A stretch of DNA of 39,366 nucleotides, from the NCBI GenBank assembly GCA_021443335.1, contig JABUUE010000004.1:1-39366 (forward strand), written 5' to 3'. Shown here one piece after another: positions 3,020-39,362 of this stretch (the stretch's first letter is position 1; the number at the start of each line of letters is the position of its first letter). The stretch comes from Bacteroidaceae bacterium. Its GTDB lineage: Bacteria > Bacteroidota > Bacteroidia > Bacteroidales > Bacteroidaceae. Both the position numbers and the translations under genes were made by a program. Under the pieces are notes generated by a model, which was not told where the DNA came from, made no database searches, and worked only from the letters and a program-made list of their open reading frames with translations.

Positions 3020-3141
3020 TCTTATTTACTATTTAATTATTTACTATTTACTATTGGCCTTTATTTAGCTATTTTTCTATTTGATTATTTTTATATTTAG
3101 CTATTTTATATTTAGCTATTAATTATAACCATTTACTATTT
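3020..3141. repeat. AT-rich degenerate tandem array (TTTACTATT / ATTTAGCTATT words) abutting the GGGtGRT start codon
   Basis: ttatttactatttaattatttactatttactattgg...tatttagctattttatatttagctatt...accatttactattta. Confidence 0.7.
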
Positions 3142-3200
3142 AGATAAATACTAACCAATATCTTTATTGAATTTAATGTTTAGGTAACTTTCTTTTACTC

Positions 3201-4784: not shown

Positions 4785-4802
4785 AAAGCCTCGAAAACTC
4801 GA

Positions 4803-4860
4803 AATAGTAAATAGTAAATCCCAAAAATAGTAAATAGTAAATCCCAAAAATAGTAAATCC
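4803..4860. repeat. 23-bp tandem repeat AATAGTAAATAGTAAATCCCAAA (2 full + 1 partial copy) abutting the next start codon
   Basis: 4803-4825, 4826-4848, partial 4849-4860, read directly. Confidence 0.9.
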
Positions 4861-9841: not shown

Positions 9842-10867
9842 ATGGACATTTCAAAACTCGGAGAATTTGGACTTATAGACCATCTGATGGATGGATATGA
9901 ACTGAAGAATCCATCATCAGAACATGGCGCGGGCGACGATTGTGCCGTGCTCAACCATAGCAACAGGCGTGTGCTTGTAACCACCGACATGCTTATGGAG
10001 GGCGTTCATTTCGACCTCACATACATAAGTCTTGAGCTGTTAGGCTACAAGGCGGCAATGGTAAACATTTCCGACATCTTTGCAATGAACGGAAAGCCGG
10101 AACAGATGACCGTCAGTATAGCGCTCTCAAAAAAGTTCTCTGTAGAGAATTTAGAAGATTTCTACAAAGGACTGCACCGCGCCTGCGACAAATGGAACAT
10201 TGACATTGTTGGCGGCGACACTTCGTCATCGCTCACAGGACTTGCCATAAGCATCACATGCATCGGCAGCGCTGACAAGGACGAAATAGTTTACCGCTCA
10301 GGAGCAAAGGAGACAGACCTTATCTGCGTCTCCGGCGACCTCGGAGCTGCTTATATGGGCTTGCAGATATTAGAACGAGAGAAGGCTGTTTTTTACCAGA
10401 CGAAAACCGACAACGACTTCCAGCCTGACTTTGCCGGGAAAGAATATCTGCTGGAACGCCAGCTGAAGCCTGAAGCACGCGGCGACATCTTGGAAGCCTT
10501 GCGCTCATACGGAATACAGCCGACAGCCATGATTGACATCTCCGACGGACTGTCGTCAGAACTGCTCCACATATGCAAACAAAGCAAATGCGGCTGCCGT
10601 ATCTACGAGAAGAACCTGCCAATAGACTATCAGACAGCGGTTACAGCCGAGGAGTTCTCGATGAACGTAACCACATGCGCAATGAACGGCGGCGAAGACT
10701 ACGAGCTGCTCTTCACCGTGCCAATAGGCGACCTACAGAAAATCGAACAGATAGAAGGGGTGAAGATGATTGGCTACATCACAAAGCCGGAGCTCGGCGC
10801 ACAACTTATAACGCGCGACAACCAGGAATTTGAAATCAAGGCACAAGGATGGCAACACGAGATATGA
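9842..10867 (+). CDS. thiL: Thiamine-monophosphate kinase
   Basis: 341 aa; GDDCAVL, LVTTDMLMEGVHFDLTY, MVNISDIFAMNGKPEQM, IDISDGLSSELLHICKQS, NGGEDYELLFTV. Confidence 0.95.
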   Translation: MDISKLGEFGLIDHLMDGYELKNPSSEHGAGDDCAVLNHSNRRVLVTTDMLMEGVHFDLTYISLELLGYKAAMVNISDIFAMNGKPEQMTVSIALSKKFSVENLEDFYKGLHRACDKWNIDIVGGDTSSSLTGLAISITCIGSADKDEIVYRSGAKETDLICVSGDLGAAYMGLQILEREKAVFYQTKTDNDFQPDFAGKEYLLERQLKPEARGDILEALRSYGIQPTAMIDISDGLSSELLHICKQSKCGCRIYEKNLPIDYQTAVTAEEFSMNVTTCAMNGGEDYELLFTVPIGDLQKIEQIEGVKMIGYITKPELGAQLITRDNQEFEIKAQGWQHEI

Positions 10868-11442
10868 AGAAACTGATACTTGCATCAAACAGCCCGCGCC
10901 GCAAGGAACTGCTTGCCGGTCTCGACATTCCCTTTGAGGTGAGAGTCATTGACGGCATTGACGAGTCACACCCCGAAGGTGTTGACATCTACTCCCTGCC
11001 GGAAATTCTTGCGCAGAGAAAGGCTAACGCCTACAAAGACCACATCAGCGACGACGAGGTATTACTGACGGCTGACACCGTTGTAATCTTAGGCGAGAAG
11101 ATTCTCGAGAAGCCTACTTCGCTCGAAAACGCCAAGGAGATGCTGCGACAACTGAGCGGCAAGTCGCACAGCGTAGTCACAGGTGTCTGCATAGGCACGA
11201 AAAACGACCTCAACCACAGTCACTTCTCCGTCCTTACGGAAGTGCGCTTCAAGAAACTCACAGAAGAGGAGATAAACTACTATGTGGAAACTTACAAGCC
11301 TCTCGACAAGGCTGGAGCCTACGGAATACAGGAATGGATAGGCTATGTGGGAGTGACTGGCATAGACGGAAGTTTCTACAATGTTATGGGATTACCAGTG
11401 CAAAGATTGTATCCGGAATTGATAAAAATCATAAACTTATGA
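10864..11442 (+). CDS. maf: Maf-like nucleotide pyrophosphatase (septum formation inhibitor family)
   Basis: ORF opens at 10849; likely start MKKLILASNSPRRKELLAGL at 10864, overlapping the thiL stop by 4 nt; LTADTVVILGEKILEKP, GAYGIQEWIGYVGVTGIDGSFYNVMGLP. Confidence 0.93.
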   Translation: MKKLILASNSPRRKELLAGLDIPFEVRVIDGIDESHPEGVDIYSLPEILAQRKANAYKDHISDDEVLLTADTVVILGEKILEKPTSLENAKEMLRQLSGKSHSVVTGVCIGTKNDLNHSHFSVLTEVRFKKLTEEEINYYVETYKPLDKAGAYGIQEWIGYVGVTGIDGSFYNVMGLPVQRLYPELIKIINL

Positions 11443-11470: not shown

Positions 11471-11501
11471 TTGCAAGTTTGCTAACATAGTCGTAACTTT
11501 G
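11471..11501 (+). promoter_or_regulatory. Candidate promoter of a free-standing transcript (-33 TTG, 19 nt, -7 TAACTTTG)
   Basis: TTGC at 11471-11474 and TAACTTTG at 11494-11501 with consensus-like spacing. Confidence 0.55.
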
Positions 11502-11507
11502 CAACGT

Positions 11508-11571
11508 GTTTTTCATGGTATTAGATTATTAAGGTTAGAAGATTGGTTGTCGCGAGACAATCAATTTTTTT
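11508..11571 (+). ncRNA. Candidate small RNA or orphan leader, ~64 nt, ending in an intrinsic terminator
   Basis: Promoter-like element at 11471-11501; hairpin ATTGGTTGTC-gcga-GACAATCAAT (11542-11565, one G-T pair) then a T-tract to 11571; no ORF downstream in the same orientation. Confidence 0.5.
11542..11571 (+). terminator. Intrinsic terminator
   Basis: attggttgtc gcga gacaatcaat + T run. Confidence 0.75.
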
Positions 11572-11612
11572 ATACCCATGCTGATTACAAACAAATAATC
11601 GGCATGGGTATA
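11571..11612. terminator. Second strong hairpin, 17-bp stem / 8-nt loop, possibly bidirectional terminator
   Basis: TATACCCATGCTGATTA-caaacaaa-TAATCGGCATGGGTATA, one mismatch. Confidence 0.65.
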
Positions 11613-11650
11613 AATTTTGGATTTACATTTATGAGCAAAATATCCCCCGA

Positions 11651-11755
11651 ATAATTTATGGGCAAATAATTTATAGGCAAATAAATTATAGGCAAATAAA
11701 TTATAGGCAAATAAATTATAGGGAAATAAATTATAGGGAAATAAATTATGAGAAA
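11651..11755. repeat. 15-bp tandem repeat ATAAATTATAGGCAA, 7 copies with graded variation
   Basis: 7 consecutive 15-mers 11651-11755: ataatttatgggcaa, ataatttataggcaa, ataaattataggcaa x2, ataaattatagggaa x2, ataaattatgagaaa. Confidence 0.97.
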
Positions 11756-11759
11756 AAGA

Positions 11760-11793
11760 AAATCCCCGAAAGCCAAATAGTCTTCGGGGATTT
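11760..11793 (-). terminator. Terminator hairpin of the Nfn-like gene
   Basis: AAATCCCCGAA-agccaaatagtc-TTCGGGGATTT perfect 11-bp stem just downstream of the minus-strand stop at 11813. Confidence 0.7.
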
Positions 11794-11812
11794 ATCGTAG
11801 GGAAAAGTGTTA

Positions 11813-14167
11813 TTACTTAGAAAGTTTCTCGTGCATATTCATGGCAGCTCGCCTTCCGTCGCCCATGGCGAGGATAACTGTTGCTCCTCCACGAACGATA
11901 TCTCCACCAGCATAGAGGTTAGGACGGGATGACTCCATTCCTTCGTTGACAACGATAGTGTTCTTGCGTCCGAGTTCAAGTCCTGCAATAGACTTTGGCA
12001 CGAGAGGATTTGGAGAAACGCCAACGGCAACAACAACCTGGTCAACATCGAGAGTGACAGTCTTGCCTTCTACTGGCACTGGCGAACGACGACCGGAAGC
12101 ATCTGGTTCTCCGAGCTCCATAACCTGCAATATCGCCTGGCATACACGCCCCTGCTCGTCAGCCTTGTACTCTATAGGATTGTGGAGAGTAAGGAAATTA
12201 ATGCCTTCTTCCTTGGCGTGCTTAACCTCTTCCAAACGGGCAGGCATCTCCTGCTCGCTGCGGCGATACACAAGCGTAACCTCCGCACCAAGGCGTTTCG
12301 CGGTACGACAAGAGTCCATCGCCGTATTGCCACCACCAACAACGAGAACGCTCTTGCCTAGGTTTATCGGAGTGTCAGTATGAGGGTTGGCAGCATCCAT
12401 AAGGTTCACACGGGTGAGATACTCGTTGGATGACATAATATTGATAGCATTCTCACCAGGAATATTCATGAAGTTTGGAAGTCCCGCACCAGAAGCAACA
12501 AAGATACCACAGAAATTCTGCGCTTCGAGTTCGTCAACAGAAATTGTCTTGCCAACAATGCAGTCTGGCATAAAATGAACTCCCATCTTACGAAGGTTGT
12601 CAATCTCAACATCAACAATCTTGTTCGGCAGACGGAACTCAGGAATTCCGTACTTCAACACTCCGCCGATTTCGTGGAGAGCCTCATATACAGTGACATC
12701 ATAACCGAACTTTGCCATCTCACCGGCAAAGGTAAGTCCGGCAGGACCAGAGCCTACCACAGCAACCTTCTTGCCATTGCTTGACGCTATCTCGGGAACA
12801 GAGATGTTTCCGCTCTCGCGCTCATAGTCAGCGGCAAAGCGCTCAAGGTAACCGATAGCAACTGCCTGCTTGCCCATCTTCAGATGCATACACCTACTCT
12901 CGCACTGCTTCTCCTGCGGACAAACACGACCGCAAACTGCCGGCAGTGTGGATGTTGACTTCAGCACCTTAGCCGCAGCAAGGAACTCGCCACGTTCTAT
13001 ATTCTTGACGAAAGAAGGGATATTGATGCTTACAGGACAGCCCTGAACACATTCCGGATTAGCACAGTCAAGGCAACGCTTAGCCTCAACAAGTGCCTGC
13101 TCGGAAGTGAGACCTGTGTTAACTTCCTCTATGCGGGTAGTGGCGCGATAGACAGGGTCAAGTTCCGGCATGATAACACGCTCAATGGCTGCGCGCTCCT
13201 TAGCCTTCATCGACTTACGGAGTTCCTGACGCCACTCAGCGTTGCGGTCGGTGAGAGTCTCTAAAGATTCAGAGTTTGCCTTGTTGTCAGAAGTATCAGG
13301 AGCGTCAGAGATTTCTGCGTTATCTTCATTAGTCAACTGGCAAATATGCTCCTCGTAATGCTCCATCTCGTCGCGCTCAACGTTCTTGAATGTTCCCATA
13401 CGTTTGAACATCTCATCCCAATCGACAAGAGCGCCGTCGAACTCAGGACCGTCAATGCAGACAAACCTGGTCTTACCACCAATGGAAAGACGGCAAGCAC
13501 CGCACATTCCTGTACCGTCAACCATAATTGTGTTGAGCGACACATCTGTAGGAATGCCATATTTCTGTGTTAGCAAACAAGAGAACTTCATCATCATTGG
13601 AGGACCGATGGCAAACGCCTTGTCAATCTTTGGCTCCTGCTGGATGAACTTCTCAATACCAACAGTAACAACACCCTTTTCGCCCTTTGAGCCGTCGTCG
13701 GTCATGATAATAAGTTCGTCGGAACTTGCGCGAACCTCATCCTCAAGAATAACGAGGTCTTTATTACGACCGGCAATTACTGAAAGTACGCGGTTGCCTG
13801 CGGCCTTCAAAGCCTTGATGATAGGCAACATAGGAGCAACTCCTACTCCACCGCCGGCACAAATAACTGTTCCGAAGTTCTCTATATGAGTAGGATTTCC
13901 AAGCGGACCTACAATGTCAAGAACGAAATCGCCTTCGTTCAGATTACAAAGCTTTGTACTTGAAAGACCAACTTCCTGCACAACAAGTGTAATTGTGCCT
14001 TTCTCTATGTCAGCATCAGCTATTGTAAGCGGCATACGCTCACCCAACTTGTCAACACGAACGATGACAAAGTTACCAGCCTTACGGCTCTTCGCTATCA
14101 GCGGCGCTTCTATCTCAAAGAGAAATACCTTCTCTGAGAATTGATGTTTTCTAACTATCTTATTCAT
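11813..14167 (-). CDS. Fused NfnA-NfnB-like protein: ferredoxin-NADP+ reductase/DHOD-B-like FAD/[2Fe-2S] domain + GltD-like NADPH-dependent oxidoreductase
   Basis: 784 aa; N-terminal half GTMCGACRL-type cluster motif (VDGTGMCGACRLSIGGKTRFVCIDGPEFDG); C-terminal half CLDCANPECVQGCPVSINIPSFVKNI, CGRVCPQEKQCESRC, VAVVGSGPAGLTFAGEMA, VLVVGGGNTAMDSCRTA. Confidence 0.9.
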   Translation of the reverse strand: MNKIVRKHQFSEKVFLFEIEAPLIAKSRKAGNFVIVRVDKLGERMPLTIADADIEKGTITLVVQEVGLSSTKLCNLNEGDFVLDIVGPLGNPTHIENFGTVICAGGGVGVAPMLPIIKALKAAGNRVLSVIAGRNKDLVILEDEVRASSDELIIMTDDGSKGEKGVVTVGIEKFIQQEPKIDKAFAIGPPMMMKFSCLLTQKYGIPTDVSLNTIMVDGTGMCGACRLSIGGKTRFVCIDGPEFDGALVDWDEMFKRMGTFKNVERDEMEHYEEHICQLTNEDNAEISDAPDTSDNKANSESLETLTDRNAEWRQELRKSMKAKERAAIERVIMPELDPVYRATTRIEEVNTGLTSEQALVEAKRCLDCANPECVQGCPVSINIPSFVKNIERGEFLAAAKVLKSTSTLPAVCGRVCPQEKQCESRCMHLKMGKQAVAIGYLERFAADYERESGNISVPEIASSNGKKVAVVGSGPAGLTFAGEMAKFGYDVTVYEALHEIGGVLKYGIPEFRLPNKIVDVEIDNLRKMGVHFMPDCIVGKTISVDELEAQNFCGIFVASGAGLPNFMNIPGENAINIMSSNEYLTRVNLMDAANPHTDTPINLGKSVLVVGGGNTAMDSCRTAKRLGAEVTLVYRRSEQEMPARLEEVKHAKEEGINFLTLHNPIEYKADEQGRVCQAILQVMELGEPDASGRRSPVPVEGKTVTLDVDQVVVAVGVSPNPLVPKSIAGLELGRKNTIVVNEGMESSRPNLYAGGDIVRGGATVILAMGDGRRAAMNMHEKLSK

Positions 14168-15500: not shown

Positions 15501-15557
15501 TTATTTACTATTGGACTATTTACTATTGGACTATTTATTATTGGACTATTTACTATT
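15501..15557. repeat. 15-bp tandem repeat CTATTTACTATTGGA (3 full copies + degenerate copies) abutting the serS start codon
   Basis: 15501-15515, 15516-15530, 15531-15545, then ctatttactatt...ctattggg. Confidence 0.93.
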
Positions 15558-15636
15558 TTCTATTGGGCTATTTTCCACAAACTTTCGCACGTTCAATTGG
15601 AATTCAATGTTTATTGAACATTTGCGAGACACGAAT

Positions 15637-25632: not shown

Positions 25633-25774
25633 AACTTTCGCAAGCTCAAGTTTGAGTTAAAGGTCTAAGGTTTTAAGGTCTAAGGTTAAAGGTTTAAGGT
25701 CTAAGGCCAAAGCCAAGGCCAAAGCCAAGGTCCCTCCAACCTCCAACCTTTAACCTTAAAACCTAACGAAAGTT
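25633..25774. repeat. Mosaic repeat-rich intercistronic element with alternative inverted-repeat pairings
   Basis: AACTTTCG (25633-25640)/CGAAAGTT (25767-25774); AGGTTTTAAGGT (25668-25679)/ACCTTAAAACCT (25753-25764); AAGGTTAAAGGTT (25682-25694)/AACCTTTAACCTT (25745-25757); central GGCCAAAGCCAAGGCCAAAGCCAAGG. Confidence 0.85.
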
Positions 25775-30754: not shown

Positions 30755-30792
30755 AAAAAACGTATGGCGCAAAGCATAAAGCGGTAAGTGCT

Positions 30793-30845
30793 AAGTTCTA
30801 AGTACTAAGTTCTAAGTGCTAAGTATGATTACCCACTTAAAGGCA
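30793..30845 (+). repeat. 53-bp dispersed repeat, copy A (TAAGTTC/TAAGTAC heptads + TATGATTACCCACTTAAAGGCA)
   Basis: 52/53 identity by eye to 39310-39362. Confidence 0.95.
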
Positions 30846-36659: not shown

Positions 36660-39332
36660 ATGAAAAGCTATACTGGACTCACCGAAGCGCAAGTGGCGGA
36701 AAGCCGCAAGAAACACGGAAAAAACATTCTGACACCTCCTGCAAAAGAACCTGTCTGGAAACTGTATCTGGAGAAGTTCCACGACCCTCTGATTATCATC
36801 CTTCTCATAGCGGGAGTTCTGTCTGTGGGAATATCCTGCTACGAATATTGGGGACTGCAAAACGAGCCTGCGGTCTTCTTCGAGCCGATTGGTATTTTTG
36901 TTGCCATACTCCTCGCCACCGGTCTCGGTTTCTACTTTGAATTTGTGGCAAACAAGGAGTTTTCGGTTCTAAACCATGTGAACGACGAGGAGGCGGTGAA
37001 AGTGATACGCAACAGCAATGTCATTGAGATAGCGAGGAAAGACGTGGTTGTTGGCGACATCGTTATTCTGCACACTGGCGACGAAGTGCCGGCAGACGGA
37101 GAACTGCTCGAGGCGGTATCGCTGAACATTGACGAATCAACACTGACGGGCGAACCTGTATGCTCCAAGACTACCGACGAAGCTTGCTTTGACAACGACG
37201 CCACTTACCCGTCAAACTGCGTGTTGCGAGGCACAAAGGTGATGGAGGGACACGGCATTTTCGAGGTAAAAAGTGTGGGCGACGCCACGGAAAACGGGAA
37301 GGTATTTGTGGAAGCGCAGATTGACGACTCCGTGAAAACACCGCTCGACGAACAGTTCGACCGATTAGGAATGATGGTAACTTACATCAGCTACACCATC
37401 GCTGCGCTGATAATCGTGGGCAGACTGCTGCACTACTTCTGCTGTGAGCCGTTTGAGCTTGTAACCTTCCTCTCCCACACGCTGAGAACACTGATGATAG
37501 CCGTGACACTCATCGTTGTGGCTGTGCCCGAAGGTCTGCCAATGGCTGTAACGCTGAGCCTCGCCTACTCCATGCGCTCAATGCTGAAAACCAACAACTT
37601 GGTGCGTAAACTTCATGCGTGCGAGACGATGGGAGCGACAACCGTAATCTGCACCGACAAGACGGGCACGCTGACACAAAACAAGATGCAAGTGGAGAAA
37701 TGGACTTTCAGCAAGCTCACTCCCGAATTAGCGGAAGGCATTGCCGTAAACTCCACCGCCTCGCTCGACTTCTCGGGAGACACTATAAAGCCCGTAGGAA
37801 ACCCGACAGAGGGAGCGCTGCTGCTATGGATGAACAGCAACGGATACGACTACCGCAAGATAAAGACTCTAACGGCAACAATAGAAGAAGTGCCATTCTC
37901 GACGGAGCGAAAATACATGAGCACAACAGTCAATTCGGCTGTAGCGGAAAAGCCTGTGACATACACGAAAGGGGCACCAGAGATAGTCTTCTCCATGTGC
38001 AAAACATCGGACATAGACGAGGAGACGCTGAAAGCAACCCTGAAAGCTTATCAGGATGACGCCTACAGAACATTAGGCTTTGCACGCGACAACCATTTTC
38101 TTGGTGTTGTGGCAATCAGCGACCCAGTTCGCGAGGATGTGCCTACGGAGGTGAAGAAATGTATGGACGCCGGAATAAATGTGAAGATTGTTACCGGCGA
38201 CACTCCGGGAACGGCAATGAAGATAGGGCGCGAGATTGGCTTATGGACAAACAGCGACAACGACGAGAACATTATCACCGGCACTGAGTTTGCGGCTCTC
38301 AGCGATGAAGAGTTGAGACAGCGCGTGAACAATCTGAAAATCATTGCGCGCGCCCGTCCGATGGACAAGAAAAGGCTTGTGGAAGCGTTGCAGGCAAACA
38401 ACCATATTGTTGCCGTGACTGGCGATGGAACAAACGACGCGCCAGCCCTGAACGCTGCTCACGTGGGACTGTCTATGGGCGACGGAACTTCTGTGGCAAA
38501 GGAGGCTTCAGATATAACAATTATTGACAACTCGTTCTCTTCCATCGGTCATGCAGTGATGTGGGGGCGCTCGCTCTACAAGAACATTCAGCGCTTCCTG
38601 CTCTTCCAACTGACGGTGAATGTCTCTGCCTGTCTCATCGTTCTCGTCGGAGCATTTATGGGAACAGAGTCGCCGCTGACAGTGACGCAAATGCTGTGGG
38701 TAAACCTTATCATGGACACTTTCGGGGCAATGGCTCTCGCCTCTCTCCCACCCTCGCCAAGCGTGATGACGGAAAAACCACGCGACCGCAAAGCTTTCAT
38801 CCTGACGAAATCCATGTACGCCAACATCATCGGCGTTGGAGTGGCTTTCTTCCTTCTGCTGTTCTCCATGCTTTTTATCTTCCAGCACTTTGACGTCAAC
38901 TCGCTGACAGACATTCTTTGGATGTTCTTCTATCCAGATTCTATTACGACGGCCATCAGCGCAAGTGCCAGCGATATTGACGCACAGACACGGGCGGTTA
39001 CTCCTTACGAGCAGACACTGCTGTTCTCAATATTTGTCTGGACACATTTCTGGTACATGTTCAACGCGCGCTCGTTTGAAACCGGCGAGAGTTTCTTCGC
39101 CGTACCAAAGAGCACTGGCTTCTGGACAATAGCCATCATAATCTTCGTCGGACAGTTCGTGATAACTGAGTTGCTTCCGCAATTCTTTGATGTTGTGCCA
39201 ATGCTCCACAACAGCGCTCACCCTTACGCCTGGGCAGACTGTCTCGCAATAATCATACTCTCGTCATCAGTGTTGTGGATACGAGAGGTTTTCAGGTGGA
39301 TATCTCCTAAAGTTCTAAGTACTAAGTTCTAA
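36660..39332 (+). CDS. Calcium-translocating P-type ATPase, PMCA-like
   Basis: 890 aa from MKSYTGLTEAQVAESRKKHGKN; VVAVPEGLPMAVTLSLAYSM, CTDKTGTLTQNKM, TGDGTNDAPALNAAHVGLSMG, multiple C-terminal TMs. Confidence 0.94.
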   Translation: MKSYTGLTEAQVAESRKKHGKNILTPPAKEPVWKLYLEKFHDPLIIILLIAGVLSVGISCYEYWGLQNEPAVFFEPIGIFVAILLATGLGFYFEFVANKEFSVLNHVNDEEAVKVIRNSNVIEIARKDVVVGDIVILHTGDEVPADGELLEAVSLNIDESTLTGEPVCSKTTDEACFDNDATYPSNCVLRGTKVMEGHGIFEVKSVGDATENGKVFVEAQIDDSVKTPLDEQFDRLGMMVTYISYTIAALIIVGRLLHYFCCEPFELVTFLSHTLRTLMIAVTLIVVAVPEGLPMAVTLSLAYSMRSMLKTNNLVRKLHACETMGATTVICTDKTGTLTQNKMQVEKWTFSKLTPELAEGIAVNSTASLDFSGDTIKPVGNPTEGALLLWMNSNGYDYRKIKTLTATIEEVPFSTERKYMSTTVNSAVAEKPVTYTKGAPEIVFSMCKTSDIDEETLKATLKAYQDDAYRTLGFARDNHFLGVVAISDPVREDVPTEVKKCMDAGINVKIVTGDTPGTAMKIGREIGLWTNSDNDENIITGTEFAALSDEELRQRVNNLKIIARARPMDKKRLVEALQANNHIVAVTGDGTNDAPALNAAHVGLSMGDGTSVAKEASDITIIDNSFSSIGHAVMWGRSLYKNIQRFLLFQLTVNVSACLIVLVGAFMGTESPLTVTQMLWVNLIMDTFGAMALASLPPSPSVMTEKPRDRKAFILTKSMYANIIGVGVAFFLLLFSMLFIFQHFDVNSLTDILWMFFYPDSITTAISASASDIDAQTRAVTPYEQTLLFSIFVWTHFWYMFNARSFETGESFFAVPKSTGFWTIAIIIFVGQFVITELLPQFFDVVPMLHNSAHPYAWADCLAIIILSSSVLWIREVFRWISPKVLSTKF

Positions 39333-39362
39333 GTACTAAGTATGATTACCCACTTAAAGGCA
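39310..39362 (+). repeat. 53-bp dispersed repeat, copy B, overlapping the 3' end of the Ca2+ ATPase gene
   Basis: 52/53 identity by eye to 30793-30845; contains the TAA stop at 39330-39332. Confidence 0.95.

Follow-up and report, generated by a model that had tools for sequence, protein, structure and literature searches.

A predicted FopS-family small RNA gene downstream of maf in a Prevotella-like bacterium with no detectable RRM-1 gene

Results

A promoter, a short RNA and a terminator lie between convergent genes

The DNA analysed here (the window) is a stretch of 39,366 nucleotides from an uncultured, Prevotella-like bacterium; the nearest named records for its maf gene are three Bacteroidaceae MAGs (82–89% identity, two from horse faeces), and the next are mostly Prevotella at about 60%. 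A preliminary description of this DNA had pointed to the gap between maf and a convergent neighbour as the possible site of a free-standing small RNA, and the layout that it gave is confirmed by the sequence: maf is met by a gltA-type gene on the opposite strand with no plus-strand gene next, an ORF-poor stretch leads into a canonical intrinsic terminator, and a second strong hairpin follows, which can be extended by two nucleotides on either side (Table 1).

Table 1. Features of the maf-downstream locus (positions in the window)
Feature	Position	Strand	Basis
maf (Maf family nucleotide pyrophosphatase), conserved upstream neighbour	10849–11442	+	TIGR00172, 156 bits
−33-like TTG of promoter	11471–11473	+	read from sequence
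−7 element TAACTTTG, sigma-ABfr type	11494–11501	+	read from sequence
Predicted FopS sRNA (RF04319), about 69 nt	11506–11574	+	cmscan, 71.5 bits; near-invariant across four species
Putative single-stranded 5′ seed region with R1/R1′ inside, GTGTTTTTCATGGTATTAGATTATTAAGGTT	11506–11536	+	consensus identity, fold, complementarity excess
Intrinsic terminator, hairpin and T-tract	11537–11571	+	fold, model alignment, stem invariant in four species
Second, locus-specific hairpin directly 3′ of terminator	11569–11614 (core 11571–11612)	+	fold, compensatory changes
DHOD-B/NADPH-dependent glutamate synthase fusion (gltA-type), convergent, neighbourhood not conserved	11813–14167	−	NF009414, 1347 bits

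The putative RNA gene begins 63 nt past the maf stop codon, and its −7 element ends 4 nt before the RNA 5′ end as placed by sequence. Both promoter elements of the preliminary description are present, separated by 20 nt instead of the 19 nt given there. The published consensus is TTTG / TAnnTTTG (PMC7366714), and the boxes of FopS copies match it; a TAnnTTTG-type box stands at a constant distance before essentially all host FopS copies that we inspected, usually with a TTG about 20 nt further upstream, and TTG(C) at equal spacing recurs in two of three sister genomes (L041 and L042) and at many copies in congeners. By its sequence, then, the gene has a canonical sigma-ABfr-type promoter. Downstream, the terminator stem pairs ATTGGTTGTC with GACAATCAAT (11542–11551/11556–11565) around a GCGA loop and runs into seven T. 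The interval 11471–11612 has a predicted folding energy of −50.5 kcal/mol, where dinucleotide shuffles give −25.4 ± 3.2 (z = −7.8, 0/200), and the predicted structure leaves most of the 5′ seed region unpaired.

The DNA that separates the second hairpin from the gltA-type gene includes a 15-bp tandem repeat (AATAAATTATAGGCA, 6.7 copies, 11650–11749) that is absent from the sister loci. Tandem arrays with periods of 7, 12–16 or 21–23 bp also occur elsewhere in the window (3022–3142, 4802–4858, 15502–15564, 25657–25730, 30785–30825 and 39310–39342), several of them made of heptamers such as TATTTAC and TAAGTGC.

The RNA matches the FopS family over its full length

The preliminary description had proposed a covariance search and left the family unnamed. 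Scanning with the curated gathering scores of Rfam 15 (cmscan) gave a full-length match (model positions 1–71 of 71) to RF04319, BTncRNA_FopS, at 71.5 bits (gathering cut-off 56; E = 1.1e-8 over the whole window), and this is the sole match over cut-off within the entire window. The alignment places the RNA 5′ end two nucleotides upstream of the start near 11508 that had been suggested, and the first 21 nt show no difference from the model consensus. We conclude from these sequence features that the gap 3′ of maf holds a real, strongly conserved regulatory sRNA of the FopS family, which supports the reading as a free-standing small RNA first suggested.

FopS RNAs are a family of paralogous sRNAs with 14 copies in Bacteroides thetaiotaomicron, where members have been mapped experimentally; they combine a single-stranded 5′ seed (R1′) with a terminator and sigma-ABfr promoters, and pair near the start codon to block translation of SusC-type glycan importers; RbpB, an RRM-1 protein, binds the sRNAs and relieves this block (Ruttiger et al. 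2025, PMC11697453). The RNA described here resembles them in matching the covariance model from end to end, in its 21-nt 5′ seed, which is identical, and in its single-stranded 5′ part with one intrinsic terminator, its sigma-ABfr promoter and its complementarity to SusC start regions. It differs in being a single copy in a different host lineage, in two extra bases after the seed (ATTATTAAGG, a subtype found in other congeners too), in the conserved hairpin 3′ of its terminator, and in a host with no detectable RRM-1/RbpB gene.

Two related Rfam families bear on whether the functional RNA might instead be a transcript of about 110 nt that includes both hairpins, a variant of GibS or BTnc231 and not a plain FopS. 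The models for BTnc231 (RF04180) and GibS (RF04182; PMC7366714) do align over both hairpins, BTnc231 is alike at the 5′ end and has two hairpins in succession, and GibS carries the R1 seed at its 5′ end (GUGUUUUUCAU.GUAUUAGAU). Yet the scores (34.7 and 29.7 bits) are far under the cut-offs of 80.4 and 115, and most of each score is contributed by the 5′ seed that these RNAs have in common. A large part of the BTnc231 lower stem fails to form here; GibS is about 145 nt long with a middle part that aligns poorly, and according to PMC11697453 it carries a further seed (R2) and uses a PM2 promoter, whereas the box here is TAnnTTTG. In addition, the seven T after the first hairpin should terminate most transcripts there. 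Although the second hairpin directly adjoins the terminator and appears to be under selection (see below), we regard this longer form as unlikely. Of the two-hairpin candidate in the preliminary description, the first part is kept as FopS, and the second hairpin lies outside the family consensus and is specific to the locus.

The RNA is conserved while its surroundings change

The genome that holds the window (2.9 Mb, 90% complete) has one FopS copy over cut-off, as does each of three sister genomes, one of which has another below cut-off. More widely, FopS exceeds the cut-off in 33 of 35 sampled congeners, with 1–5 matches each and at unrelated loci, and Rfam FopS matches occur in 42 of the 60 genomes sampled; the preliminary description's unverified impression that similar stretches recur in other Bacteroidales is correct. 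The order maf–FopS is kept in the three sister genomes and at one further locus (L314), and FopS was absent near maf at the 29 congener maf loci fetched.

Across the four maf-linked species the RNA body has two variable positions besides the end of the T-tract, one lying ahead of the stem and the other within the loop, whereas the DNA on either side diverges. The gene 3′ of FopS is clpP-like, an unrelated convergent gene, lysozyme-like or gltA-type (ORFs named by inspection only). These patterns speak to two further readings. An orphaned 5′ leader or transcription attenuator whose gene was lost would share the promoter, short RNA and terminator seen here, and the preliminary description had offered it as an option; but no plus-strand gene follows, the element is repeated at unrelated loci with an invariant RNA and a changing downstream gene, and family members have been mapped as sRNAs, so that this origin has only the slightest probability. 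A product of the maf 3′ UTR, or a plain maf terminator, in either case with no regulatory role, would fit the closeness of the RNA to the maf stop codon and its linkage to maf throughout the clade, and one FopS of B. thetaiotaomicron is indeed 3′ UTR-derived (PMC11697453). Against it stand the RNA's own promoter box at constant spacing, an unstructured 5′ part that is conserved as strongly as the stem, and more distant maf loci that lack the element in genomes carrying FopS elsewhere; we consider it very improbable.

The exact 22-nt FopS 5′ seed is also found in 39 IMG/VR viral contigs (L237–L275). Some resemble host-type FopS, TAnnTTTG promoter included; many have little in common beyond the seed, with hairpins that are unrelated (about a dozen carry CCCCGCCGTCCGTGAGGATAYGCGGGG, for example) and without a TAnnTTTG promoter, and 5 of the 11 contigs scanned reach the FopS cut-off. 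In L237 (3826–3922, minus strand), a viral contig with four tRNAs, the seed starts 2 nt past the 3′ end of a predicted tRNA-Arg, and tRNA 3′ processing could thus make the 5′ end of the sRNA.

A second hairpin is specific to the maf locus

All four maf-linked copies have the second hairpin, and six of its 15 pairs carry changes on both sides among the four species. Paired cells amount to 98.3% when both helices are counted together, the first helix being invariant in these four sequences, and shifting the partner by 1–3 columns abolishes this pairing. Such compensatory changes point to selection on pairing, within an alignment of four sequences, which is few. At the other congener FopS copies inspected, including those with the same terminator sequence, no hairpin is fused to the T-tract, and among the fetched loci the exact 17-nt 5′ arm occurs only in copies of the maf locus; the second hairpin therefore belongs to this locus and not to the family.

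We asked whether the hairpin could be the terminator of the convergent gltA-type gene and rejected this: on the minus strand the letters after it are A and not U, the minus-strand gene has a stem of its own by inspection (AAATCCCCGAA/TTCGGGGATTT, 11760–11794), and the hairpin persists in relatives with other downstream genes. Matches to other Rfam families (miRNA families, potC) scored below their cut-offs, as any long hairpin may give. Because it is kept when the downstream gene changes, the hairpin is more likely connected with transcription of FopS and maf than with the convergent gene. Our best guess is that it would give read-through transcripts of maf and FopS a fail-safe end or a 3′ barrier.

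The known protein partner was not detected

FopS is described as forming a two-part circuit with RbpB, and the RNA and RRM-1 proteins are said to be jointly conserved across Bacteroidaceae. Searching for RRM_1 (Pfam PF00076) detected no member in the genome of the window or the three sister genomes, nor in 33 of the 35 congeners, nine of which are 99% complete; 31 of these 33 carry FopS. The same search was positive in Bacteroides ihuae, used as the control, and in 16 genomes from other families. Outside the genus, one genome with a completeness of 99% (G056) combines five FopS matches with no RRM_1. The two remaining congeners (G024 and G030) have one RRM_1 gene each, which suggests either loss elsewhere or later gain. 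Judging from these draft genomes, RbpB, the known FopS antagonist, is probably lacking here, and without RRM_1 the published FopS–RbpB circuit is incomplete.

The 5′ region is complementary to SusC translation starts

Nucleotides 1–36 of the RNA were compared with positions −40 to +30 of genes, with the first ATG taken as the start, using ViennaRNA duplexfold without accessibility; in the own genome, 26 SusC genes were set beside about 480 other ORFs, and the null was 160 dinucleotide shuffles. SusC starts gave a mean of −15.1 kcal/mol against −12.0 ± 0.8 for the shuffles (0/160). Other genes gave −13.1 against −12.0 ± 0.4, where the real RNA again beat all 160, and the difference between SusC and other genes was −1.97 against −0.03 ± 0.70, equalled by 2 of 160 shuffles. 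The SusC excess is weak when signal-peptide-like genes are the reference (p = 0.03, one-sided). At 30 SusC starts from the three sister genomes the mean was −14.6 against −11.9 ± 0.9 (1/400 shuffles). The FopS 5′ region is therefore significantly complementary to translation starts, more so to those of SusC genes, and this is partly replicated in the sisters. It is an average excess: the distributions overlap, other genes share part of it, and sites are not individually conserved.

The strongest single site (−32.8 kcal/mol; the mean over the shuffles' best sites is −23.1 ± 1.8) covers the start codon of a gene for a URO-D/L-rhamnose mutarotase fusion that is followed by a fucP-like transporter gene (G000:C37:86044–87432, minus strand, in L166), and the leader of this fusion is complementary to nearly the entire FopS 5′ region. 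We predict this rhaM/fucP-like sugar operon to be the best single target; no orthologues of the fusion and its fucP-like neighbour were found at E ≤ 1e-60 among 17 other genomes. Perfect or near-perfect complements of the seed in the own genome are limited to the antisense of the FopS gene itself and two sites with 3 mismatches.

Discussion

Family membership, promoter and terminator, conservation and excess complementarity all find support in the sequence. As a whole, the working model of a gene downstream of maf for a FopS-family trans-acting sRNA that represses SusC-type importers is, in our view, very probably right. The likeliest form of it is the published FopS mechanism in a host without the RbpB arm. 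Transcription would start near 11506 and stop in the T-tract near 11571. Once expressed, the RNA would use its 5′ seed, with the complement ...CTAATACCATGAAAAAC..., to pair in vivo over the start codons of mRNAs for SusC-type importers and of some further mRNAs for sugar uptake, and the duplex may repress them by blocking ribosome entry, by analogy with FopS-10 of B. thetaiotaomicron, for which this has been shown (PMC11697453). With RbpB probably absent, relief of repression must come another way, perhaps from control at the promoter, from RNA turnover or from another protein. The single copy, set beside the 14 of B. thetaiotaomicron, counts against a full FopS parallel, though the assembly is 90% complete; multiple copies are a trait of Bacteroides that the Rfam model does not demand.

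We hold it to be an evenly balanced question whether FopS of this Prevotella-like genus works without RRM-1, being either chaperone-independent or served by another partner after RbpB was lost or never gained, with the maf-locus RNA bearing an added, selected 3′ hairpin. As a further member of an already published family, the maf-downstream RNA is of modest novelty; its one point of real interest is a FopS with no detectable RRM-1 partner. That many species, mostly without RRM_1, have FopS with its seed unchanged uncouples the RNA from the RbpB half of the circuit, and in single-copy hosts the function of FopS could be tested by one deletion, which is impossible with the 14 copies of B. thetaiotaomicron.
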